A stretch of DNA of 64,000 nt, from assembly GCA_017656345.1 (NCBI GenBank), contig JACDNZ010000010.1:19848-83847 (forward strand), in the 5' to 3' direction. The translations under genes and the position numbers were made by a program. Below, piece after piece: positions 2,117 through 31,048 of this stretch. Each line of letters opens with the position of its first letter. The first letter of the stretch is position 1. The notes beneath the pieces are model-generated. The model was not told the origin of the DNA. It saw nothing but the letters and a program-made list of their open reading frames with translations, and searched no databases. Origin of the DNA: Thermosipho sp. (in: thermotogales) (GTDB lineage: Bacteria; Thermotogota; Thermotogae; Thermotogales; Fervidobacteriaceae).

Positions 2117-2527
2117 ATGAATAAACTAGTATATGATGAAGAAGCTATAGTATATGTCACTAAAGAATTTACTTTTGATTCAGCCCATTATTTAGATGAG
2201 TATTATGGATTATGTTCTAACTTACACGGACACACATATCGTTTACAAGTTACTGTTAGAGGTATATTAAATGATATTGGAATGGTAATAGATTTTAAAG
2301 AACTAAAAAGTGTAGTTAAAGAAAAGGTAATAGATAAATTAGACCATAAATATATTAATAATACATTACCTTTTAATCCTACAGCCGAAAATTTAGTTGT
2401 TTGGATTTATGATGTTTTAAGAGAAGAATTAGAAAAAAGAAAAATAGTTTTGGATAGCATTAAGTTATGGGAAACTCCAACAAGTTTTGCAGAATACAGA
2501 GGTGATAGACTTGCTTTATATAGATGA
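2117..2527 (+). CDS. queD: 6-carboxytetrahydropterin synthase (QueD)
   Basis: FTFDSAHYL...LHGHTYRLQVTV...GMVIDFKELK...LDHKYIN...PTAENLV. Confidence 0.93.
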   Translation: MNKLVYDEEAIVYVTKEFTFDSAHYLDEYYGLCSNLHGHTYRLQVTVRGILNDIGMVIDFKELKSVVKEKVIDKLDHKYINNTLPFNPTAENLVVWIYDVLREELEKRKIVLDSIKLWETPTSFAEYRGDRLALYR

Positions 2528-3149
2528 AATATTTGTTAGCGTACAAGGTGAAGGAACAAGTATAGGATTACCTACTGTGTTTATAAGATTACACGGCTGT
2601 AATTCGAATTGTATCTATTGTGACACTAATCAAAAAGATAGAAAAAGAAGAAAAATGTCAGTAGATAATATTTTAGAAGCTGTTTTCAGAACTGGAATAA
2701 CTAATGTATGCATTACTGGTGGTGAACCTTTATTGCAAGAAGAAGTTTATTGTTTAATATATGACTTAGTTGGAAGAGGTTATAGTGTGAGTATTGAAAC
2801 TAATGGAAGTATACCAATAAGTGAAGATTTATATAAAAGGTCTTATAAGTATGTAATGGATATAAAATGCCCTTCTAGTTTAATGCACCATAAAAATAAA
2901 TATGCTAATTTAGAAATATTACAGGCACATGATGAAGTAAAATTTGTTATAGCTGATAAAGAGGATTATAAATTTGCTAAAAGTATTTTAAAGAAATATC
3001 CTACTAAAGCACAAATTTTATTTAGTCCCTTATTTAATAAAGATAATAAACAGTATATAGGTAAAGAATTATGTAATTGGATAATTAAAGACAGATTAAA
3101 TAATGCTAGAGTATTACTACAAATGCACAAAATTTTAGGTGTAAGTTAG
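2511..3149 (+). CDS. queE: 7-carboxy-7-deazaguanine synthase (QueE), radical SAM
   Basis: FVSVQGEGTSIGLPTVFIRLHGCNSNCIYCDT (CX3CX2C), TGGEPLLQ. TTG at 2511 has SD agaggtgat; upstream ATG 2487 less likely. Confidence 0.9.
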   Translation: MLYIDEIFVSVQGEGTSIGLPTVFIRLHGCNSNCIYCDTNQKDRKRRKMSVDNILEAVFRTGITNVCITGGEPLLQEEVYCLIYDLVGRGYSVSIETNGSIPISEDLYKRSYKYVMDIKCPSSLMHHKNKYANLEILQAHDEVKFVIADKEDYKFAKSILKKYPTKAQILFSPLFNKDNKQYIGKELCNWIIKDRLNNARVLLQMHKILGVS

Positions 3150-3159
3150 GAGTGATATT

Positions 3160-3696
3160 ATGAAAAAACAAGAATGGGATATAATAAAACAACTACCAGT
3201 TAAAATAGTAAAAGCACTACCTAAAGAAGCAGTAAGAAAAGAGGTAATAGAAAATCTTTCAGAAATATTTAAAGAAACTTATAAAGAGTTAAGAGAAGTA
3301 AATAAAAAAGAGATAGGTAAATTGTCTAGAAAAGTATTTAGTTATAGAAATAGACCTAAAGTATTCGCTATTGACTATGATGGTACTTTAAACAGAGCAG
3401 GGTTTAGAGGCGGAAAACACGAATTAGACCCAGAAATAGTTGAATTTATAATGTTAGCCAAGAAATATGGGCATAAAATAGTTATATGGACTTGCAGAAG
3501 TGACAAGTATTTAAAAGAAGCTTTAAATGTTTTAGATAGAAATAATATACCTTATGATTATGTAAATGAGTTTCCAGAGTGTGATTTTGGAAGTCCTAAA
3601 ATAGTCGCAGATAGGTATATAGATGATTTAAACCTATCAATTAAAGAAGTAAAGGAGATTGTGAGATATGAAAGAGAAAGTAATAGTACTAAATAG
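3160..3696 (+). CDS. HAD-superfamily phosphatase/hydrolase
   Basis: FAIDYDGTLNRAG...IWTCRSDKYLKEAL...VADRYIDDLN. Confidence 0.75.
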   Translation: MKKQEWDIIKQLPVKIVKALPKEAVRKEVIENLSEIFKETYKELREVNKKEIGKLSRKVFSYRNRPKVFAIDYDGTLNRAGFRGGKHELDPEIVEFIMLAKKYGHKIVIWTCRSDKYLKEALNVLDRNNIPYDYVNEFPECDFGSPKIVADRYIDDLNLSIKEVKEIVRYERESNSTK

Positions 3697-5347
3697 TGGT
3701 GGATTTGATAGTGTAGTTTTAATAAAATGGTTAGCACAACAAAAGTATGATATTGTTTCTATTTTCTTTGATTATGAACAAAGAAATGTAAAACAAGAAA
3801 GAGAAAAGGCTAGAAAAGTCGCTAAAGAGGTAAAAGCAGAACACATTGAAATAAAACTCCCAAAATTTGAATGGAGTAATAATAGTTTATATGATAAATC
3901 TTTAGGAATTGATATAAAAAATCAATATATTCATATGAGAAATTTAATATTTTTATCCTATGCAATATCTGTGGCTGAAAGTAAAAAAATTAATAAAATA
4001 TATAGTGCAATAATAAATGCTAGAGAAAATACCTATAGTGATACAAGTATAAAATTTATAAATGCTTTTAATGATTTTGTAAATAAATTTGGTATAGAGT
4101 TTAAAACTCCTTTTAGTGAGCTATCTAAAGTACATTTAGGTTATATAGCTAGAGTGTTAGATATTAAAAAGAACGACTTTTTTAGTTGTAATACTCCTAA
4201 AGATAATGGAGAGCCTTGTGGTAAATGTGGAGATTGTAAATCATTAGATTATATTGTTACTAATATATTAGAGGATAGTATACCTATTCACACTTATTTT
4301 AGAGCGAATTTAAATCCAGATGAAAAGTTTAAAAAATTATTTAGAAATAGTAAGATAAAGGAGTTAAGATTATTAAATACAGACAAATGTCAATTTAATT
4401 GTAAGCATTGTTTTTATGGATTTGATAAAATGAAAGGAAATCAATTAACAATAGAAGAATATAAAAATATTATAGACCAAGCTAACGAATTAGGCATAGA
4501 AAATATACATTTTTCTGGCAGAGAGCCTTTATGTGATGAAAATATATTTGAGATAATGGCTTATATAAAACAGAATTATAGCGATATGACATATGATTTA
4601 GTAACTAATGGAGTCTATATAGAAAGGTATATTGATAGATTAAAAGAGCTTGAAGTAAATAAAATATTTGTTAGTATAGATAACCTAAAAGATTTAAAAA
4701 TAAGACCAACAATAAAAGGGGTAATTGACGCTATAGATTTAATTCAAAATAAAGAAATTCCTTTAGAAGTATTTATTGATATTCATAAAGGTAATAAAAA
4801 TCAAATAAAAGATATTATATATAAATTATATAAAGAGTATAATGTAAGAAATTTTCACGTAAGACCTATTTCACCTTTAGGTAGAGGAAAAAATATAATT
4901 AATGAAATAATAGACGCTAAAGAATTAGATGAGGTGTTTAAGGACTTAATAAATTTAAATTTAGATAATGTAATAATAGAATTTGCAATAAAAAATGTAT
5001 GGACTAAAAAATTATTAGAAAGAAATTATACTTTATCAAATTATTTATATGACCTTATAGATACTACTAATAATATAGTAGGTAATATAGTACTTTTACC
5101 AGAATTTTATTGTAGCAGATTTGAGAGTCAAATAACCTTAACCCCAGATGGTTACATTTTAGGTTGTGCTACAGAAATTAGTTCTATTCATTATGATAAA
5201 ATATCTGTAGGGAATATAAGAGAATTACCTTTAAAAAAGTTAATAAAATTAGGTAAAGAACAGTCTTTGAAGATGATAGATAAGCAACATAAAAATAAAA
5301 ACTATAACGGTAGTTGTTACCATACTTTTTATAAATTGAAAAATTAA
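3668..5347 (+). CDS. QueC-like preQ0 synthase domain fused to a radical-SAM domain with SPASM/twitch-like C-terminal cysteines
   Basis: N-term VLNSGGFDSVVLIKWL (PP-loop) and CNTPKDNGEPCGKCGDC (QueC zinc motif); C-half DKCQFNCKHCFYGF (CX3CX2C), then CSRFESQITLTPDGYILGC...C. Confidence 0.85.
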   Translation: MKEKVIVLNSGGFDSVVLIKWLAQQKYDIVSIFFDYEQRNVKQEREKARKVAKEVKAEHIEIKLPKFEWSNNSLYDKSLGIDIKNQYIHMRNLIFLSYAISVAESKKINKIYSAIINARENTYSDTSIKFINAFNDFVNKFGIEFKTPFSELSKVHLGYIARVLDIKKNDFFSCNTPKDNGEPCGKCGDCKSLDYIVTNILEDSIPIHTYFRANLNPDEKFKKLFRNSKIKELRLLNTDKCQFNCKHCFYGFDKMKGNQLTIEEYKNIIDQANELGIENIHFSGREPLCDENIFEIMAYIKQNYSDMTYDLVTNGVYIERYIDRLKELEVNKIFVSIDNLKDLKIRPTIKGVIDAIDLIQNKEIPLEVFIDIHKGNKNQIKDIIYKLYKEYNVRNFHVRPISPLGRGKNIINEIIDAKELDEVFKDLINLNLDNVIIEFAIKNVWTKKLLERNYTLSNYLYDLIDTTNNIVGNIVLLPEFYCSRFESQITLTPDGYILGCATEISSIHYDKISVGNIRELPLKKLIKLGKEQSLKMIDKQHKNKNYNGSCYHTFYKLKN

Positions 5348-5370
5348 CGTTTGAAGGGTTGTAAAATTTG

Positions 5371-5480
5371 CCTTTTAGTAGTATCCTTAAAGTAGGGTTG
5401 ATAGTAGCCAGAAGTTTTTTTCCTAGTGTTCACTATCTGGTGTATACTAGTTCCTATCAACCTAAAACTACTAGGAGGTG
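5371..5480 (+). promoter_or_regulatory. candidate structured leader RNA that can sequester the SD of the 5486 gene
   Basis: Nested pairings: CCTTTTAGTAGT (5371-5382) with ACTACTAGGAGG (5467-5478, contains SD; two G-U pairs); GGTTGATAG (5396-5404) with CTATCAACC (5454-5462); CCAGA (5408-5412) with TCTGG (5436-5440). Confidence 0.5.
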
Positions 5481-5485
5481 AAATC

Positions 5486-5653
5486 ATGTTTATAAAAGTT
5501 TTTGCAGAAGGTGAAGGTAGTAGAGCTTCTAGAATTGACAGAGCTATGAGAAACTCTGGAAATAGGACAGCTTTGAGAGCCTACAATGAAGCTATCCGAA
5601 GATTAAGAGAAGGTAGAGTAGCTTACCAACCACCAGGACGCCCTAGAGGATAA
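5486..5653 (+). CDS. 55-aa basic protein with N-terminal FIKVFAEGEG motif
   Basis: ATG 5486 preceded by aggaggtg; sequence MFIKVFAEGEGSRASRIDRAMRNSGNRTALRAYNEAIRRLREGRVAYQPPGRPRG. Confidence 0.75.
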   Translation: MFIKVFAEGEGSRASRIDRAMRNSGNRTALRAYNEAIRRLREGRVAYQPPGRPRG

Positions 5654-5709
5654 TCTTTAATTTAGATTAGCCCCTCCCCCTTTCGTGATAAATATATGGG
5701 TCGGAACAA

Positions 5710-5752
5710 GATAGACTACTAGTAAAACTTGCTAGTAGTCTATCTTTTTTAT
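5710..5752 (+). terminator. Rho-independent terminator
   Basis: gatagactactag ... ctagtagtctatc followed by TTTTTT. Confidence 0.85.
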
Positions 5753-5792: not shown

Positions 5793-6380
5793 ATGACTGA
5801 TAACAAAATAGAAAGAATTAAAAATCATTTAGAAGAAATAATGGATATATTAGAGTTAGAGAAAAACGATAGTACTAAAGACACCCCATTTAGAGTTGCT
5901 AAGATGTGGGTAAATGAGATATTTAAGAATAGGAATAATAAAAATATTGAAGAATTAAATGCACAAATGAAATTATTTAAAAATAATTTCTGTAATGATG
6001 AATTAATTATAGTAAAAGATATTGAATTTAGCTCATTTTGTGAACACCATTGGCTACCATTTACAGGCAAGATTTCTGTAGGTTATGTACCTACAGATAA
6101 AATAATAGGTTTATCTAAAATTCCTAGAGTGGTGAAATTCTTTAGTCAAAAACCTCAATTACAAGAAAGATTAGTCCATGAGATAGGGGAATATTTAGCA
6201 GGTATTATAAATCCACAAGTTTTATTTGTATCTGCTAAAGCTATACATGATTGTGTAATGTGCAGAGGTGCTGAAAGTAATTCTATAACTGAAACTTCTT
6301 ATGTTTATATGAACTCATATATACCTATTGAAGCAGTTACAGCGTATAAAAAAGAGTTTATTTTAAAGACTACTAAATAG
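5793..6380 (+). CDS. folE: GTP cyclohydrolase I (FolE)
   Basis: DTPFRVAKMWVNEIF, FSSFCEHHWLPFTGKISVGYVPTDKIIGLSKIPR, AIHDCVMCRG. Confidence 0.93.
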   Translation: MTDNKIERIKNHLEEIMDILELEKNDSTKDTPFRVAKMWVNEIFKNRNNKNIEELNAQMKLFKNNFCNDELIIVKDIEFSSFCEHHWLPFTGKISVGYVPTDKIIGLSKIPRVVKFFSQKPQLQERLVHEIGEYLAGIINPQVLFVSAKAIHDCVMCRGAESNSITETSYVYMNSYIPIEAVTAYKKEFILKTTK

Positions 6381-6392
6381 AGGTGATTGTAA

Positions 6393-6959
6393 ATGCGAAT
6401 TTTATTAGCAGTAGGTAGTCCAAGAAAATATGGTAATACATTTAAATTAGCAGAAGAATTTAAGAAACAAGCCGAAATTAAAGGTCATATAGTAGATTTT
6501 TTAGCTTTAGATGATTATACTATAAAACCATGTAATCATTGTGGTTTTTGTATAGAAAAGAGAGAATGTAAACATTTTGATGAGTTAAGAGAGGTATTAA
6601 TAAATTTTGAAGAGAAATATAACGGAATTATTATTGCAAGTCCTATTTATTTTTTCTACCTTACAGCCCAAACTAAATTATTTTTAGATAGATTATATTC
6701 TGTTAATTTAAGTCATAAATTTATTGGTGCTATTTTAGTATCTGGTAGTGAGTTTTTTGAAGGAGGAAATGATTTAGTTATAGATTCATTAAAAAGAGTA
6801 TGTAATTATTGTAATAGTATATTTGTCGGAGTAGTACAAAAAACTACTTATGATGATGTATTAGATTTATCAGAAAATGATAAATCTAATATAGAGAAAC
6901 TAATTTTATCTATAGAAAATAATAATAATATTAATTCCTCTATATTTATTGATTATTAA
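6393..6959 (+). CDS. NADPH-dependent FMN reductase / iron-sulfur flavoprotein-like
   Basis: AVGSPRKYGNTFKLAEEFKKQ, CNHCGFCIEKREC, GIIIASPIYFFYLTAQTKLFLDR. Confidence 0.8.
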   Translation: MRILLAVGSPRKYGNTFKLAEEFKKQAEIKGHIVDFLALDDYTIKPCNHCGFCIEKRECKHFDELREVLINFEEKYNGIIIASPIYFFYLTAQTKLFLDRLYSVNLSHKFIGAILVSGSEFFEGGNDLVIDSLKRVCNYCNSIFVGVVQKTTYDDVLDLSENDKSNIEKLILSIENNNNINSSIFIDY

Positions 6960-6973
6960 AGAGGTGATGTAAT

Positions 6974-9013
6974 ATGAATAAATTAAGAGAAATAATAAAT
7001 AGAGATAGGCTATTCACTATGATTTATTCTGGAGTAGAGAATGAAAAGTATTTTAATATACTTTATAATATGGGAATAAGAAATTTCCTTATATCATTTC
7101 ATTATATTACTGAAAAGAATATTGATATAAAAAAGCAATATAAAGATAAAAATATAAAATTTTTTATAGACTCTGGTGCGCATACCTATCAAAATGACCC
7201 TAAATATCTTGATTATCCAATAGAATATTGGGAAAATCATTTAAAAAAATATTTAGATTGGGCTAAAGAAAATAAAGATTATATATTTGCAATAGCCAAT
7301 TTTGATTTTGAGAATTTAGTTGGTGCTGAAAAAATACAAGAATGGAATAAAAAATATTTTGAACCCTTTATGTTAGAAACAGGTATACCAGTATGTTTTG
7401 TATGGCATCAAGATTCATATACTACATGGGAAAGATATTGTGAAAGATACCCATATGTAGGTTTTTCTTCTGTAAATACAGAAGGTGAAGCTATAGAATT
7501 AAAAGAATATATAAGTAAGCTAAAAATAGCTCAGAAATACAATTCAGTTGTTCACGGATTTGGAATGACTCGAACTTCAATGCTTCCTAAACTTCCTTTT
7601 TATACAGTAGACTCCACTACTTGGTTAGTTGGACTTCAATATGGTGAGATAAACTACTGGAATGGTACTAAAATGTCTAGATTAAAGAAAGAAAAGTGGA
7701 AAGGTGAATATCTACCTAAATTAATAGCTTTAGGTTTAAATAAAGAAAAGTTACTTGCAGAAGATACCGAAGAAATGATAAAAGCTAATATAATACCTTT
7801 TATTGAAGCCGAAAAATATATTAGACAAAGATTAAGAAGTAGAATGTATTGGTTGAAACAAGAAAAGAATAATAATTCTTTAGATGATACTGATTTATTT
7901 CCACCTTTAGATTGGTTAGAAGGTAAGACTGAACCTCAATATGATAATTGGGAAGAGTATGCTAAGAGATTAAACATAAATGTAGAAGATAGGACTTTTG
8001 CTATAAATGCAGTAATAGATTGTTCAGTATTTTGTCAGATAGATATAGACGAAGAAGGAGAAATAACAAGTGAAAACCCAGATTTATTAAATTTCTTTAA
8101 TGAAAGTTATTTAGGTAAAAATTTAATACCAGAATTACACGATTTATATATTAATCAAGTAAGTAGTGATGAAAAAGAACAAATAAGAGATTTAATTAAT
8201 TTCTTTAGAGATGTTGCAACTGGTAAAGAAGAGAAATTACTAAATTGGGGTACTGCTTTTGCGAAAGCAAGAGAAAGAGAAAAGTATATAGAAGAGGAAG
8301 AATATGAGTATGAAGATTTAACAGAAGAAGAAATTAGAGATAAATTAAGCGAACTTCTCCCAGCCCCTAAAGATGATTCTGACCCTCACCCAGAAGTAAC
8401 AGCTTTAGATGATGAAATATTCAACAAAGCTGGAATAGTACCAGTAAGAGATAGTAAAGGAAGATTCTTAAAAGGTCAAAGAAAAGTAAGAAAGCCTAAG
8501 AATATTTATAGTGATAAGTACCCTAAATTAGCTTGTGATACTTGTTATGCGGCACAATCCTGCCCAGAGTATAAAGCTGGTTATGTGTGTGCATATAATA
8601 AAATGTTTAAGAGATTTGATACAAGAGATATGAACGATATAATAGACGCTATGCAAAGTATGGTTAATTTAAACTTAGAACGTATGCAGAGAGTTGCCTT
8701 ATTTGAAATTTTAGATGGTGGTATGCCAGATGGAAACTTAACAGCTATGATAGACCAAAACATGAGATTACTAAAATTATTGAAAGATATGTACCAGTAT
8801 GGTAACCCAGAAGTATTAAAGCAAACTAAAATAAAACGTGCTGACGGTACAGAAGAAACTATAGTACAAGTAAGTAACCCAAGAGGTGGAGGAATATTAG
8901 AGAAGTTATTTAGTCAAACAGTAAATAAAAGTAATAATAATAATAAAGAAGAAGAAACTAATCCTAAGAGTAAGATAGATAAGGAAAATGCAATAGATGT
9001 GGATATTGAATAG
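6974..9013 (+). CDS. TGT/DpdA-like deazaguanine DNA transglycosylase candidate with additional C-terminal Cys-containing domain
   Basis: FFIDSGAHTYQ, ANFDFENLVGAE, VVHGFGMTRTSMLPKLPFYTVDSTTWLVGLQYGE resemble phage TGT-like proteins; C-term CDTCYAAQSCPEYKAGYVCAYNKMFKRFDTRD. Located in the deazaguanine gene block. Confidence 0.6.
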   Translation: MNKLREIINRDRLFTMIYSGVENEKYFNILYNMGIRNFLISFHYITEKNIDIKKQYKDKNIKFFIDSGAHTYQNDPKYLDYPIEYWENHLKKYLDWAKENKDYIFAIANFDFENLVGAEKIQEWNKKYFEPFMLETGIPVCFVWHQDSYTTWERYCERYPYVGFSSVNTEGEAIELKEYISKLKIAQKYNSVVHGFGMTRTSMLPKLPFYTVDSTTWLVGLQYGEINYWNGTKMSRLKKEKWKGEYLPKLIALGLNKEKLLAEDTEEMIKANIIPFIEAEKYIRQRLRSRMYWLKQEKNNNSLDDTDLFPPLDWLEGKTEPQYDNWEEYAKRLNINVEDRTFAINAVIDCSVFCQIDIDEEGEITSENPDLLNFFNESYLGKNLIPELHDLYINQVSSDEKEQIRDLINFFRDVATGKEEKLLNWGTAFAKAREREKYIEEEEYEYEDLTEEEIRDKLSELLPAPKDDSDPHPEVTALDDEIFNKAGIVPVRDSKGRFLKGQRKVRKPKNIYSDKYPKLACDTCYAAQSCPEYKAGYVCAYNKMFKRFDTRDMNDIIDAMQSMVNLNLERMQRVALFEILDGGMPDGNLTAMIDQNMRLLKLLKDMYQYGNPEVLKQTKIKRADGTEETIVQVSNPRGGGILEKLFSQTVNKSNNNNKEEETNPKSKIDKENAIDVDIE

Positions 9014-9022
9014 TAACATAGG

Positions 9023-9066
9023 TTGAAAATCAATGCTTGACAAGCCCCCTTTAAGTGTTATATAAT
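9023..9066 (+). promoter_or_regulatory. sigma-A-like promoter with upstream TTGAAAATCAA box
   Basis: TTGAAAATCAA 9023-9033, TTGACA 9037-9042, TATAAT 9061-9066 (18-bp spacer). Confidence 0.75.
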
Positions 9067-9472: not shown

Positions 9473-9829
9473 ATGTCATTCAAAAAAGTTAAGAGAGGTG
9501 AAGTTTATTTAGCTAGAGTTGGTAACAAATATGTCGGTAGTGAGCAGAAAGGTACAAGACCAGTTTTAATTATCCAGAATAATATAGGTAATAGATTTAG
9601 CCCAACTGTCATAGTAGCTTTTATAACTTCTAAACTACATAAGAAGAAACTACCGACCCATTGTTTGGTTAATTTAAAAGTACCTTCTATAGTTTTAACT
9701 GAACAACTAAGAACGATTGATAAAACTCGTTTAGTTGAAAGAATGGGTAGATTAACAGAAGAAGAAATGCAAAAGGTTGAAAAGTGTTTAAGAATAAGTT
9801 TAGATTTAGGGGGCGATGGAGGTGACTAA
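9473..9829 (+). CDS. MazF/PemK-family endoribonuclease toxin-like protein
   Basis: KRGEVYLARVG...GSEQKGTRPVLIIQNNIGNRFSPTVIVAFITSK...PSIVLTEQLRTIDKTRLVERMGRL. Confidence 0.88.
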   Translation: MSFKKVKRGEVYLARVGNKYVGSEQKGTRPVLIIQNNIGNRFSPTVIVAFITSKLHKKKLPTHCLVNLKVPSIVLTEQLRTIDKTRLVERMGRLTEEEMQKVEKCLRISLDLGGDGGD

Positions 9830-11159
9830 GACTGAAAGAGATAAAATGTTTGAAGAGAATATGGGTTTAGCTAAAAGTATTGTTTTCAAAGAGTTTAAAA
9901 ATTTTGCACACACAAGTGGTATGACTTTAGAAGATGTATTACAAGTTGCTTATATAGGGTTACTGAAAGCAGTAGATAAGTTTGACGCTAGTAGAGGTTT
10001 AGCTTTTAGTACATTCGCAGTACCTACTATTCGTGGCGAAATTTTGCGTTATATGAGAGATTATAGCCCTAATCAAATAAAAATAAGTAGGAGTATTAAA
10101 ATGTTATATACTAAATATAATAAACTAAAAGATGAAGGTAAAACAGATGAAGAAATAATGAAAGAATTAGAGGTATCTAGAGAAGAATTAGAGAATATAA
10201 AGGTGTCAAAACTTGAGCCTGTGTATTTAGATGATACTGTAAATAACAATAAAATAAAAGATGATAATAAAGATATTTATAGAATTGATAGGTTAACTAA
10301 TGAATATGATTTAGCTGAAAGTACTGTAAATCTAATAGACTTGAGAGAAAAATTAGCATTACTTAGAGATGAAGTTGGTTATAGGAATTTTGAAATATTA
10401 ATGTTAGAAAGATTTGAAGAAATGAACCAAGAAAAAATTGCAAACATGGTTGGTGTTACTCAAGTACAAGTAAGCAGAATAGTAAAAAGAATACAAAATA
10501 AATTCATTCCTTTAGTTGAGCAAAAATATAATAATGGTAAAAGAAGTAAAAACTATAAGGGGGAAAATCTAATGAGTGTAAAAGAAAGACATAAACAACA
10601 AATTGAAGTGTTAATTAATTGGTGCTTAAATAATAAAGGTAAGAAATTAACTAAAATAAGAGAAATTTTAGAAAAGCATAATTTAGATGTAATACCTGGA
10701 TATGAAACTGTATTAAAAAGATATGTACTAGAAGAATTAAATAATAGAGGTGTAGTAATAACTAAAGTTCCGAGAAATGATAGAGGTATAAACTTTTGGG
10801 TATCTACAGATGAAGAATTGAAAAAATATACTCCAGTAAATAATGTAATAGACTTAACTAATGAAGAAGTAATACCTGTGGTTGAAGAGCATAAACAGAA
10901 TACCGAAGATGAAAGTCCTACTTCAACTAAAACAAATAGAGAGGTTTTAAAAGAAACTGTTAATAGAATGGACATAGATAGATTGAAGAAACTTGAGGAA
11001 ATAAAATCAGCTAATAAAATAGTAATATTTAATTATTGTAATAGCCTAACACGTGATACTATATCACCTATTATTGATACTATGAAAAGCATTTTAGAAA
11101 TATCAGAGTTACAGGATAGTTCTTTAGAAGCTAATATTGTTTTAACAATAGAAAAATAA
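9816..11159 (+). CDS. RNA polymerase sigma factor (sigma-70 family, sporulation/stress type) with ~200-aa C-terminal extension
   Basis: LEDVLQVAYIGLLKAVDKFDASRGLAFSTFAVPTIRGEILRYMRDY; region 4-like NFEILMLERFEEMNQEKIANMVGVTQVQVSRIVKRI. Confidence 0.88.
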   Translation: MEVTKTERDKMFEENMGLAKSIVFKEFKNFAHTSGMTLEDVLQVAYIGLLKAVDKFDASRGLAFSTFAVPTIRGEILRYMRDYSPNQIKISRSIKMLYTKYNKLKDEGKTDEEIMKELEVSREELENIKVSKLEPVYLDDTVNNNKIKDDNKDIYRIDRLTNEYDLAESTVNLIDLREKLALLRDEVGYRNFEILMLERFEEMNQEKIANMVGVTQVQVSRIVKRIQNKFIPLVEQKYNNGKRSKNYKGENLMSVKERHKQQIEVLINWCLNNKGKKLTKIREILEKHNLDVIPGYETVLKRYVLEELNNRGVVITKVPRNDRGINFWVSTDEELKKYTPVNNVIDLTNEEVIPVVEEHKQNTEDESPTSTKTNREVLKETVNRMDIDRLKKLEEIKSANKIVIFNYCNSLTRDTISPIIDTMKSILEISELQDSSLEANIVLTIEK

Positions 11160-26137: not shown

Positions 26138-26713
26138 GTGTTTGAAAAATCTTTCTACTATAAAGATAATATATTAGAGTTAAAGAATAATATTATAGAA
26201 GCTGTTAAATTTATTAAGAAGGATTTTAAAGAAATAGCAATAGTAAATATAGGTACTGATAGATGTACTGGAGATTGTTTTGCACCTCTTGTGGGGACTT
26301 TAATTAAAAGTGATGAAAGATTTGATTTCCCTAATGTTAAAGTTTATGGTGACTTAAATGAGCCAATTCACGCTAAGAATTTAGAAGAGTTTTTAGAAGA
26401 TTTTAATAAGCAAGTTACTCCAGATACTTTAGTCATTGCTATTGACGCTTGTTTAGGTAAAGAAGAAGATATAGGTTTTATAAAAATTAAAAGTGAAGCT
26501 TTAAGTCCCGGTAGAGGTTTAGATAAAGACCTACCTAAAGTTGGGGATATATGTATAAATGGTATAATAAGTGAAAATAGTGATTTTAATATTTTTACAT
26601 TATCTCAAGTAAAATTAGGCTTAGTTTACTCTATGGCAGAAGTAACTAGAATTGCTTTAAAACTTGCAATTCAAGAATTATATAATGAAAACTATAAAAT
26701 ATATAAAATATGA
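26138..26713 (+). CDS. yyaC: YyaC-like (GPR-fold) sporulation protein
   Basis: VNIGTDRCTGDCFAPLVGTLI, VYGDLNEPIHAKNLEEFL, VIAIDACLGKEEDIGFIKI...LSPGRGLDKDLPKVGDICINGI. Confidence 0.85.
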   Translation: MFEKSFYYKDNILELKNNIIEAVKFIKKDFKEIAIVNIGTDRCTGDCFAPLVGTLIKSDERFDFPNVKVYGDLNEPIHAKNLEEFLEDFNKQVTPDTLVIAIDACLGKEEDIGFIKIKSEALSPGRGLDKDLPKVGDICINGIISENSDFNIFTLSQVKLGLVYSMAEVTRIALKLAIQELYNENYKIYKI

Positions 26714-27928: not shown

Positions 27929-30900
27929 ATGCACAACTTTAATCAAAATGCAGTAAAGATTTTAGAAGATAGATACCTATTAAAAGACGGTGATGGAAGT
28001 ATTATTGAAACTCCAGAAGATATGTTAGAAAGAGTTGCAACTGTAGTAAGTAAAGGTGATGAAAAATTAAAAGAAGAGTTTTTAGAAATAATGAGGGAGT
28101 TAAAATTCTTACCGAATAGTCCAACTTTAATGAACGCTGGTGCTAAGTTAGGTCAACTTTCAGCTTGTTTTGTTGTACCAGTAGAAGATAGTATGCATAG
28201 TATTTATAAAGCTATACACGACCAAGCAATTATTCAAAAGACAGGTGGAGGAACAGGATTTAATTTCTCTAAATTATCAGAGAAAGACGCATTTTTAACA
28301 ACAAGTCAAGGTAGAGCAAGTGGACCTATAAGTTTTATGAAAGTGTTTAATGAGTCTAGTAGAACTGTAGAACAAGGTGGAAAACGTAGAGGGGCTAATA
28401 TGGGAATTTTAGAAGCCGACCATTTTGATATTTTTGATTTTATAGAAGCAAAAAATGTTAAGTATTGTGATGTTTGTAATACAAAAATGGGAAGAAATCA
28501 ATTTGAATGTCCTAATTGTGGGAGATATATTCCAGAAGATACAACATTAAACTATTTTAACTTATCAGTAGGTATAAATGACGAATTTATACAAAAAGCT
28601 ATAAATTTAGTTGAAAAAGGGATTGATAGTGATTGGGTTTTAAGAAGTAGACGTGACCCTAATAAAATTAAAGTAGTTAAGTTTAGTGATTTATGGAAGA
28701 AGATTGTTTTTTATGCTTGGTATAGTGGAGAGCCTGGATTAATAAATTTAAGTGAGATAAATAGACATAACCCTATACCTACAGAGCCGATAGACGCTAC
28801 TAATCCATGTGTTGTAGGAGATACTTTAGTCCAAACAGTAGAAGGAGAAATACCAATAAAAGATTTAGTTGGTAAAGAAATTGATGTATATTGTATGAAT
28901 GAAAAAGGTGAGTTAACAATATCTAGGGCATATAATATTAGAAAAACTAGAGAAAATGCAGAGTTAGTTAAAGTTGTTACAACTAGAGGTGAAATTATTT
29001 GTACTCCAGACCATAAATTTTATACTAAAAATAGAGGTTGGGTAGAAGCTAAAGATTTAAACCCTAAAGATAAAATTGTAGGTTTGAATAGAAAAATGAA
29101 AAACGAGAAATATTGTGCTGTAGGATTGACAGGTACAGAATATATATCAGAGCATAGATTTATTATGAGCCATTATGAGGATATTGAAGGTAAAGACGTT
29201 CATCATATAGATGGCAATACATTAAATAATGTAAAATCTAATTTAGAAGTAATAGAACATGGTAAACATTCAGTATTGTCAAATAAAGGGCATATTGATT
29301 GGAGTATTAGAAATGAAAAAGGTCAATTTGTACGAAAGCCTGTAAAAAAAGAGAAGGATAAACTTACATTGAATAGACCTATAGGGGCTAATTTAAGAGT
29401 TAAAGAAGTTATTTATTTAGATTATAAAGAGGACGTTTATGATTTAACTGTAGAAAATTATCATAATTTTATAGCTAACGGTGTTGTTATTCACAACTGT
29501 GGTGAACAACCTCTAAGACCTTACGAAAGTTGTAATTTAGGAAGTATTAATTTAGATAGATTAACTGACATGGAAGGTAATTTAGATTTTAAAGAATTAG
29601 AAAGAGTAACAAGATTAGCAGTAGACTTTTTGGATAATGTAATAGATGTAAATAAATATCCTCTAAAAGAAATTGAAGAAAGTACTAAGCAAACAAGAAA
29701 TATAGGTTTGGGTGTAATGGGATTAGCTAGAATGTTACAGAAGATGGAGATACCTTATGATAGCCCAGAAGGTAGAGCTAAAGTAAAGGAAGTTTTAGAA
29801 ATAATACAATATTTTGCTGATGACCAAAGTATGTATAGAGCAAGAAAATATGGTAATTTCCCACTATATGAAAAAAGTGTTTATGCAGAACAAGGAATAC
29901 CAATGAGAAACGCTACAAGAACTACAGTAGCACCTACAGGAAGTATAGGAACATTAGCTAATACAAGTGGTGGTATTGAGCCAGATTTTACACATAGATT
30001 TACTAGAATAGTTAATCAAGGAGATGAAGAAAAAGAATTTAAAATAGTAGTAGAAAACCCAGTTTTAGTTGCTAAATTAAAGAAATACAACTTATATTCA
30101 GAGGAATTAATGAAAGAGATTGAAGAAAATGGAGGAATGTTACCAGAGAACCCTAAAGCTTTAGTAGGTTATCCAGCTAGTGTATATGATTTATATAAAC
30201 ATCTTAGAGAAGTATTTAAAACTGCAAATGAAATAAGTGTTGAAGGTCATATTGATATGTTGATAGCAGTTCAATCAGTTATAAATAATGCAGTATCTAA
30301 AACTATAAATCTACCTAATGAAGCAACTGTAAAAGAAGTAGAGGAAGCTTTTATTAGAATGATAAAAGGTGGTGCTAAAGGGGTTACTGTTTACAGATAT
30401 GGAAGTAGAAAGTTCCAACCTTTAGTTACTAATAAAAAACAAGAAGAGAAGAAAGAAGAGAAAAAAGCTACCTCTAAGAAAGAAGGTTATATTGAGCCAC
30501 CTAGAGATAATTTACCTTCTATAAAAAGAAGATTATATACAGGCTGTGGTAAGTTGTACTTACATGCAGATTATGACCCAGAAACAGGCGATATAAAAGA
30601 AGTATTTATAGATAAAGGTAGTGAAGGTGGTTGTAAGATATTCACTAAAGCAACAAGTAGATTGTTAAGTGTTGCAATACGTGGAGGAATACCTTTAGAT
30701 ATTTTAGTAGAGCAATTAAATTCTGCTGGTAGCTGTCCTTCATATCAATACGCTAGAGGTAAAGGAAAGAAAGTAAGTCCCGGAATGAGTTGCCCTTCTG
30801 CAATAGGTAAAGAATTAGTAAGATTACAGAAAGAGTTACATGAGAAATTTAGTGATTATACAGTAAAGGAAGTAAAAGAGAATGAGTCTATAACGATAGA

Positions 30901-31048
30901 CCCTACTAAAACTTCTAAAGTTATATTAAAGGTGAAAGAAGAAAAAGAAGTAGAAGATGAAACAATGAAGTGTCCAGAATGTGGTGCTAAATTATTACCT
31001 ATAAGTGGTTGTGTTACTTGCCCAGAGTGTGGTTACAGTAAATGTTAA
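27929..31048 (+). CDS. nrdJ: adenosylcobalamin-dependent (class II) ribonucleotide reductase containing an intein
   Basis: [79 protein letters not shown]-terminal Cys cluster. Confidence 0.92.
28808..29497 (+). mobile_element. intein (230 aa) with HNH-like homing endonuclease
   Basis: Starts [20 protein letters not shown], block [12 protein letters not shown]-like [20 protein letters not shown], ends [14 protein letters not shown] followed by Cys (+1). Confidence 0.93.

Follow-up and report, generated by a model that had tools for sequence, protein, structure and literature searches.

In a phage genome recovered with a Thermosipho assembly, one reading frame joins QueC, an enzyme of 7-deazaguanine synthesis, to a radical-SAM (rSAM) domain, and a gene for a short basic peptide follows it. 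What does this protein make, and does its product end up on a DNA base or on a protein? The stretch analysed here (the window, 64,000 nucleotides) is part of contig C10 (83,847 bp, 28.5% G+C). Because C10 carries a 55-bp terminal repeat, it is probably a complete phage genome inside a 2.1-Mb bacterial assembly. Its sheath, tube, portal, and terminase genes indicate a contractile-tailed phage.

A predicted CDG pathway and a DNA transglycosylase share one cluster

The cluster encodes, in order, an S26 peptidase, a SpoVS-like protein, QueD, QueE, a HAD protein, QueC-rSAM, the small basic ORF, FolE, a flavoprotein, and DpdA (Table 1). Pfam and PHROG matches place FolE, QueD, QueE, QueC, and DpdA together, a predicted full pathway to 7-carboxy-7-deazaguanine (CDG) plus a DNA transglycosylase. 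The original prediction, which centred on the fusion and the peptide, had omitted the next genes: FolE, the flavoprotein, and the DpdA-type transglycosylase with both candidate active-site aspartates. The flavoprotein is possibly an iron-sulfur flavoprotein and a candidate electron donor. SpoVS-like genes also adjoin queC and dpdA in Bacteroides-type phages. Among the window ORFs around the cluster, no CD-NTase gene was found (ORF list, Pfam, and PHROG). The host assembly contains Tgt and its own QueD-like gene and lacks its own QueC; its remaining PF06508 matches are weak and fall within far longer frames, as is typical of other PP-loop enzymes.

The DpdA sequence has the Asp of FIDSGAHT and that of TVDSTTW, both aligned with those of its relatives; from the TGT/DpdA family, we take these to be candidate catalytic residues. 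No sequence similarity to solved structures, Cap10 included, was detected for it. Among DpdA relatives, that of phage MT835482 (L012, 9808-12006) carries an intein inside the active-site DSTTW motif, and in the homolog of Streptomyces phage GiJojo (L013, 7989-9494) the second candidate catalytic Asp is gone (VAST instead of VDST).

Elsewhere in the window, a ribonucleotide reductase gene (27929-31048) appears to carry an intein (CVVGDT...VVIHNC), and a spore-protease-like gene (PHROG 8268, 26138-26713) is present besides the SpoVS-like gene. As judged by eye, a MazF/PemK-like toxin gene (9473-9829) is followed by a sigma-factor-like gene (9816-11159); a perfect sigma-70-type promoter match lies upstream, at 9037-9066.

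Table 1. Features of the deazaguanine cluster in window coordinates.
Feature	Coordinates	Strand	Evidence
S26-type signal-peptidase-like protein, kept in L010	1419..1757	+	Pfam PF10502 8.3e-15
SpoVS-like protein, kept in L010	1739..2053	+	Pfam PF04232 3.5e-22
QueD (6-carboxytetrahydropterin synthase family)	2117..2527	+	Pfam PF01242 1.8e-40
QueE (CDG synthase, separate radical SAM enzyme)	2487..3149	+	PHROG 2076 2.6e-42
HAD-type hydrolase, kept in L010	3160..3696	+	Pfam, PHROG; frame overlaps queC-rSAM start
QueC domain, aa 1-191 of fusion	3668..4240	+	Pfam PF06508 6.9e-36; TIGR00364; alignment
Radical-SAM core and reduced SPASM/twitch region, aa 229-550 of fusion	4352..5317	+	Pfam PF04055, SPASM; PHROG 1802; Foldseek
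Untranslated region before small gene, 138 nt	5348..5485	+	No Rfam match
55-aa basic protein MFIKVFAEGEGSRASR...	5486..5653	+	ORF; counterparts beside QueC-family genes in five other phages
Intrinsic terminator closing small gene, 18-bp stem then T-run	5708..5746	+	Equivalents in 5/5 relatives
FolE (GTP cyclohydrolase I)	5793..6380	+	Pfam PF01227 8.7e-47
FMN-reductase-type flavoprotein	6393..6959	+	Pfam PF03358 3.1e-19; CX2CX2CX5C read from sequence
DpdA-type DNA transglycosylase	6974..9013	+	PHROG 887 1.7e-79; alignment

QueC and the radical-SAM enzyme are fused in the window phage and split in a relative

The joined frame (3668-5347, + strand) is intact and encodes 559 aa. Pfam assigns aa 4-191 to QueC (6.9e-36, 124 bits), aa 238-382 to Radical_SAM (2.1e-20), and aa 482-550 to SPASM (4.5e-4; 20.9 bits, slightly below the 21.5 cut-off). 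The frame, these matches, and the motifs bear out the claim that a single ORF joins QueC to a radical-SAM/SPASM-like domain. Its companion, that the extra domain is not QueE, also holds: a real QueE is encoded separately (Table 1) and the two match different families, which rules out a second QueE.

Further evidence came from IMGVR_UViG_3300031521_000253 (IMG/VR; hereafter L010), a distant relative reached via DpdA, which has the gene order of the window over more than 10 genes and a QueE 55% identical to that of the window. In L010, QueC (210 aa) and the rSAM enzyme (318 aa) are separate full-length proteins, so the window ORF truly fuses two proteins that are each conserved. With both halves complete and kept as separate genes there, a sequencing artefact was rejected as the main reading. 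The rSAM gene of L010 lies between folE and dpdA, its start and stop codons overlapping on both sides, which ties the enzyme to deazaguanine chemistry. Fused to QueC in one phage and split from it in the other, it is thus coupled to a deazaguanine gene in both arrangements, and it was found in these two phages only. The earlier linking of the rSAM domain to the adjacent peptide was not sustained, as in L010 the enzyme goes with folE and dpdA.

The proposed search for further QueC-rSAM fusions covered IMG/VR, GTDB species genomes, and 103 genomes of the host phylum and found no other; since such scans can pick up close relatives only, they do not prove that the fusion is rare. We found no description of such a fusion in the literature, and the main text of a 2026 survey of the QueC family mentions none (PMC13329287).

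The QueC domain lacks residues kept by canonical enzymes

The window QueC has the P-loop LNSGGFDS and the zinc set C174/C184/C187/C190. Its variant motifs read YEQRNVKQE, IHMRN, YSDT, and SCN (SCNTP), and those aligned in L010 read YGQEFEQPE, NPARN, FPDA, and SCN. Against NCBIfam TIGR00364 (QueC), the two score 105.5 and 99.9 bits, respectively, both under the cut-off of 150.3. They were aligned with phage QueCs whose product (dPreQ0, dG+, dADG, or dPreQ1) is known or predicted. The product assignments come from PMC6884629 and PMC8306585 and in several cases were made for a phage closely related to the one aligned; motif definitions for QueC and Cap9 come from PMC13329287. Hits labelled 'Acinetobacter phage MD-2021a' turned out to be loci of bacterial type (PQQ, host queC operons) and were excluded as phage evidence; a QueC from these loci (L006) served solely as a canonical QueC. 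In the tree, the window and L010 proteins form one clade (support 0.99).

In both proteins, the Tyr that follows the first zinc Cys is gone (SCN in place of SCY); among the aligned QueCs, it is otherwise missing only in that of a Flavobacterium phage with a degenerate zinc site (L060). Both also lack the Cys of YPDC. Mutation of the matching Tyr in E. coli QueC (Y189A) gives an inactive enzyme (PMC13329287). Since residues kept by canonical preQ0-making QueCs are missing, the product is probably other than plain preQ0. The aromatic and Asp positions (YSD/FPD), which hold the deazaguanine base in Cap9 and QueC (PMC13279940), are retained. The domain can reasonably be read as a ligase that uses CDG and either does not form preQ0 or goes beyond it. 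The Flavobacterium protein, the QueC of phage immuto (L060, 3995-4876), has lost its zinc cysteines.

Some of the variant motifs resemble those of Cap9. Y/FxQ(x)5E, RN, and PF(x)4K are present in both QueCs; the Cap9 zinc spacing CE(x)6CxxCxxC and its CE are absent, and YxDC is partial. The L010 protein matches the Cap9 structure 9nto at 2e-7. The Y/FxQ(x)5E loop alone is not specific for Cap9, because the dG+ (9g), dADG (CP20), and HVTV-2 proteins have the longer loop too.

The radical-SAM half belongs to the SPASM/twitch fold class

The SAM-cluster motif CX3CX2C of the window enzyme corresponds to C241/C245/C248. Its C-terminal cysteines are three in all (C482, C500, and C550), and the first two form the motif C482-x12-G-x4-C500. 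The spacing from C482 to the PDG described for this region is 10 residues, not the 14 given. The full SPASM cysteine set is absent, the later SPASM cysteines being mostly lost in the window. As L010 has seven C-terminal cysteines and the window enzyme only three, the auxiliary-cluster region of the latter is reduced. Both enzymes contain CX3CX2C, an unusual G[RK]EPL, and C-x12-G-x4-C.

An AlphaFold2 model of the fusion, built from a ten-row alignment, was of moderate quality (pLDDT 67.7, pTM 0.54). Foldseek placed its first domain near QueC (3bl5 and 2pg3) and its rSAM half near PqqE, MoaA, SkfB, anSME, and viperin, in agreement with the predicted SPASM/twitch fold class. As judged from this model, the fold leaves the substrate undecided, because the class includes both peptide and small-molecule enzymes. 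No Pfam or NCBIfam match to an RRE/PqqD-like leader-binding domain was found in the window fusion or the L010 rSAM enzyme, and the latter begins straight at the barrel; the rSAM half has no room for a RiPP leader-binding domain.

A small basic gene recurs beside QueC

The short Arg-rich peptide gene described next to the fusion is present as stated, with Arg at 12 of its 55 residues and a strong ribosome-binding site (AGGAGG). The region before it gave no Rfam match at gathering thresholds, and a preQ1 or other riboswitch was therefore rejected. The L010 counterpart (60 aa, MFKVYAVNGGSN...) lies between queC and folE and has a terminator. Bacteroides phage BS162P1 and MT835482, which have the capsid family of the window phage together with a QueC-like gene, DpdA, and QueE, each encode a basic protein (36 and 43 aa, respectively) directly upstream of the QueC-like gene, again with a terminator; in BS162P1, none of the other small annotated genes, 65 in all with this one, is as basic. 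A further viral scan, used as a test, yielded two more phages of this Bacteroides type (L072 and L073), and both had a small basic gene and terminator beside QueC. The co-occurrence that the original prediction proposed to check thus extends to 6/6 phages examined, which represent one broad lineage and not six independent events, and in the canonical-QueC phages checked, QueC has no small basic gene annotated next to it. A chance ORF was rejected, as counterpart and terminator recur in five other phages. Relative to QueC, the gene is on one side in the window phage and L010 and on the other in the Bacteroides-type phages, and no rSAM gene was found near it in four of the six phages.

The six proteins start with MFIK, MFKV, and, in the four Bacteroides-type phages, MAKR, MARR, MPKG, and MART. 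A conserved N-terminal Gly (MGGS-type) is not seen across them, which leaves an N-terminal-Gly substrate of the CBASS type unsupported; none of the six contains Cys, His, or Trp. The window and L010 peptides share a leader-like V[FY]A start, followed by GEGS and NGGS, respectively. Among the coding-strand frames of the window, V[FY]AE near the N-terminus occurs only in the small ORF (5486), the capsid (38959), the scaffold-like protein (38139), and the tail tube (44666), which suggests that the small basic protein may be a virion protein; LFAE/LFAD starts are found on capsid and scaffold in MT836159. Overall, the small protein looks separately transcribed and virion-type. Given the S26 signal-peptidase-like gene, leader cleavage at VFA/VYA is conceivable.

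In the Bacteroides-type phages (L011 at about 11017-11086, L012, L072, and L073), a conserved 7-bp hairpin (GCGGUUA..UAAUCGC), in which one pair covaries, and a promoter-like TAnnTTTG precede the small gene; the hairpin gave no Rfam match in L072 or L073. The capsid proteins of BS162P1 and MT835482 (L049, 7489; L051) start with a long hydrophobic signal-peptide-like stretch.

Proposed tailoring of a phage DNA base and its alternatives

We favour, with middling confidence, the reading that QueC-rSAM produces a tailored 7-deazaguanine, which DpdA inserts into phage DNA. FolE, QueD, and QueE would supply CDG. The QueC domain would activate the CDG carboxylate with ATP and join an amine, probably halting at the amide and not the nitrile, since residues needed for canonical preQ0 synthesis are missing. 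The fused rSAM/SPASM-like domain, perhaps reduced by the flavoprotein, would then modify the deazaguanine by radical chemistry. DpdA would replace guanines of the phage DNA with the tailored base, an exchange that would protect the DNA against host nucleases, and the small basic protein would be an abundant virion or DNA-binding protein of the module, not the rSAM substrate. The chemical steps, their order, DNA as the final acceptor, and the protective role are what we infer; gene content, fusion, split counterpart, synteny, and motif changes are observed directly. DNA-base tailoring accounts for the FolE-QueD-QueE-DpdA set, the rSAM links, and the missing host QueC: all four preQ0-pathway families and DpdA lie in one cluster, and the closest folds include that of MoaA, an rSAM enzyme acting on a purine nucleotide. 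Against it, only two phages carry the rSAM enzyme, whose window copy keeps only three C-terminal cysteines, compared with seven in L010; in a model of moderate quality, the top structural matches include peptide-modifying enzymes besides MoaA; and DNA modification alone leaves the conserved small basic gene unexplained.

The same genes could serve an ordinary dPreQ0 pathway, in which QueC still makes preQ0, the rSAM enzyme has a different, accessory role and became fused by chance, and the small gene is a mere neighbour. FolE-QueD-QueE-QueC-DpdA yields dPreQ0 in phages CAjan and Rosebush (PMC6884629), the Pfam QueC score is high, and the CDG-binding positions are kept. However, both phages have lost the essential Tyr and the Cys of YPDC, and both have kept the rSAM enzyme with the cluster; these motif losses, and a score below the curated NCBIfam cut-off, make this pathway a doubtful explanation. 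The main rival is protein modification: QueC would conjugate CDG to the small basic protein, much as Cap9 modifies the CD-NTase of type IV CBASS, DpdA would take the part of Cap10, and the rSAM enzyme would add a second modification. This reading draws on the small gene beside QueC in all six phages, on either side; on the Cap9-like motifs with loss of the zinc-site Tyr (PMC13329287); and on the 9nto match. Cap9 and the TGT-family Cap10 act on a protein N-terminus (PMC11996544), and GEGS and NGGS recall the MGGS tail of CBASS substrates. Yet no N-terminal Gly is conserved, DpdA has its candidate catalytic Asp and no detected sequence similarity to Cap10, and the full FolE-QueD-QueE set seems more than a protein tag needs. 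Protein deazaguanylation of this kind would account for the small gene and for the Cap9-like losses. It does not account for the rSAM position in L010, and phages lacking the rSAM enzyme still carry the small gene; we consider it unlikely. Quite improbable, too, is a nucleobase-protein conjugation for building the virus, not for defence, a viral relative of type IV CBASS deazaguanylation in which the variant QueC puts deazaguanine on an abundant small basic protein, the rSAM enzyme tailors this base, and binding or transfer falls to the TGT-family protein.

The original prediction had left deazaguanine tailoring and peptide or protein modification side by side. RiPP-like maturation, in which the rSAM/SPASM enzyme would introduce cross-links or epimerisation into the small peptide and have only incidental deazaguanine neighbours, could draw on the maturases SkfB, PqqE, and SuiB among the closest folds, on the adjoining peptide gene, and on the leader-like start of two peptides. 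We judge it very improbable, because the small proteins have no Cys, His, or Trp, no RRE domain was found, and no rSAM gene lies near the small gene in four of six phages; moreover, capsid, scaffold, and tail tube carry the same leader. Tailoring is thus favoured over peptide maturation, on account of the FolE and DpdA neighbours, the rSAM link to folE and dpdA, the virion-type peptide, the unconserved Gly, and the lack of room for an RRE; neither is proved. The rSAM half matched no known deazaguanine-tailoring family and the small gene does co-occur with QueC, so the outcome that would have spoken against the prediction on both counts did not arise.

Comparison with known systems

We rate the window system as a new variant of phage deazaguanine modification. 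Cui and colleagues reportedly described eight 7-deazaguanine variants in phage DNA in 2023, and we know of none that arises from a radical-SAM/SPASM enzyme. The fusion of QueC with an enzyme of this class suggests a new modified base for which a genetic handle is already available. If the small basic protein were the acceptor, protein deazaguanylation would occur in phages as well as in anti-phage defence, directly linking the two.

The phage dPreQ0/dG+ pathways (FolE-QueD-QueE-QueC or Gat-QueC, with DpdA; CAjan, Rosebush, and 9g) have the same 7-deazaguanine enzyme set and DpdA family, and there, too, QueC is sometimes fused to a tailoring domain (Gat-QueC). In the window, however, the fused domain is radical SAM/SPASM-like and not an amidotransferase, the conserved Tyr and the Cys of YPDC are missing from QueC, and a flavoprotein, a HAD protein, a SpoVS-like protein, an S26 peptidase, and the small basic gene are added. 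Type IV CBASS Cap9/Cap10 and QatC protein deazaguanylation likewise combine an altered-motif QueC-family enzyme, a TGT-family protein, and a small partner in one cluster, whereas the window has no CD-NTase, QatB, or conserved N-terminal Gly, encodes the complete CDG pathway, and has a DpdA that keeps its candidate catalytic Asp. With the SPASM-twitch enzymes PqqE, MoaA, SkfB, and anSME, the window rSAM domain shares CX3CX2C, the auxiliary-cluster motif C-x12-G-x4-C, and the Foldseek fold; it differs from them, together with its L010 counterpart, in having G[RK]EP for the usual GGEP and no RRE domain, and on its own in its fusion to QueC and in having only three auxiliary cysteines.
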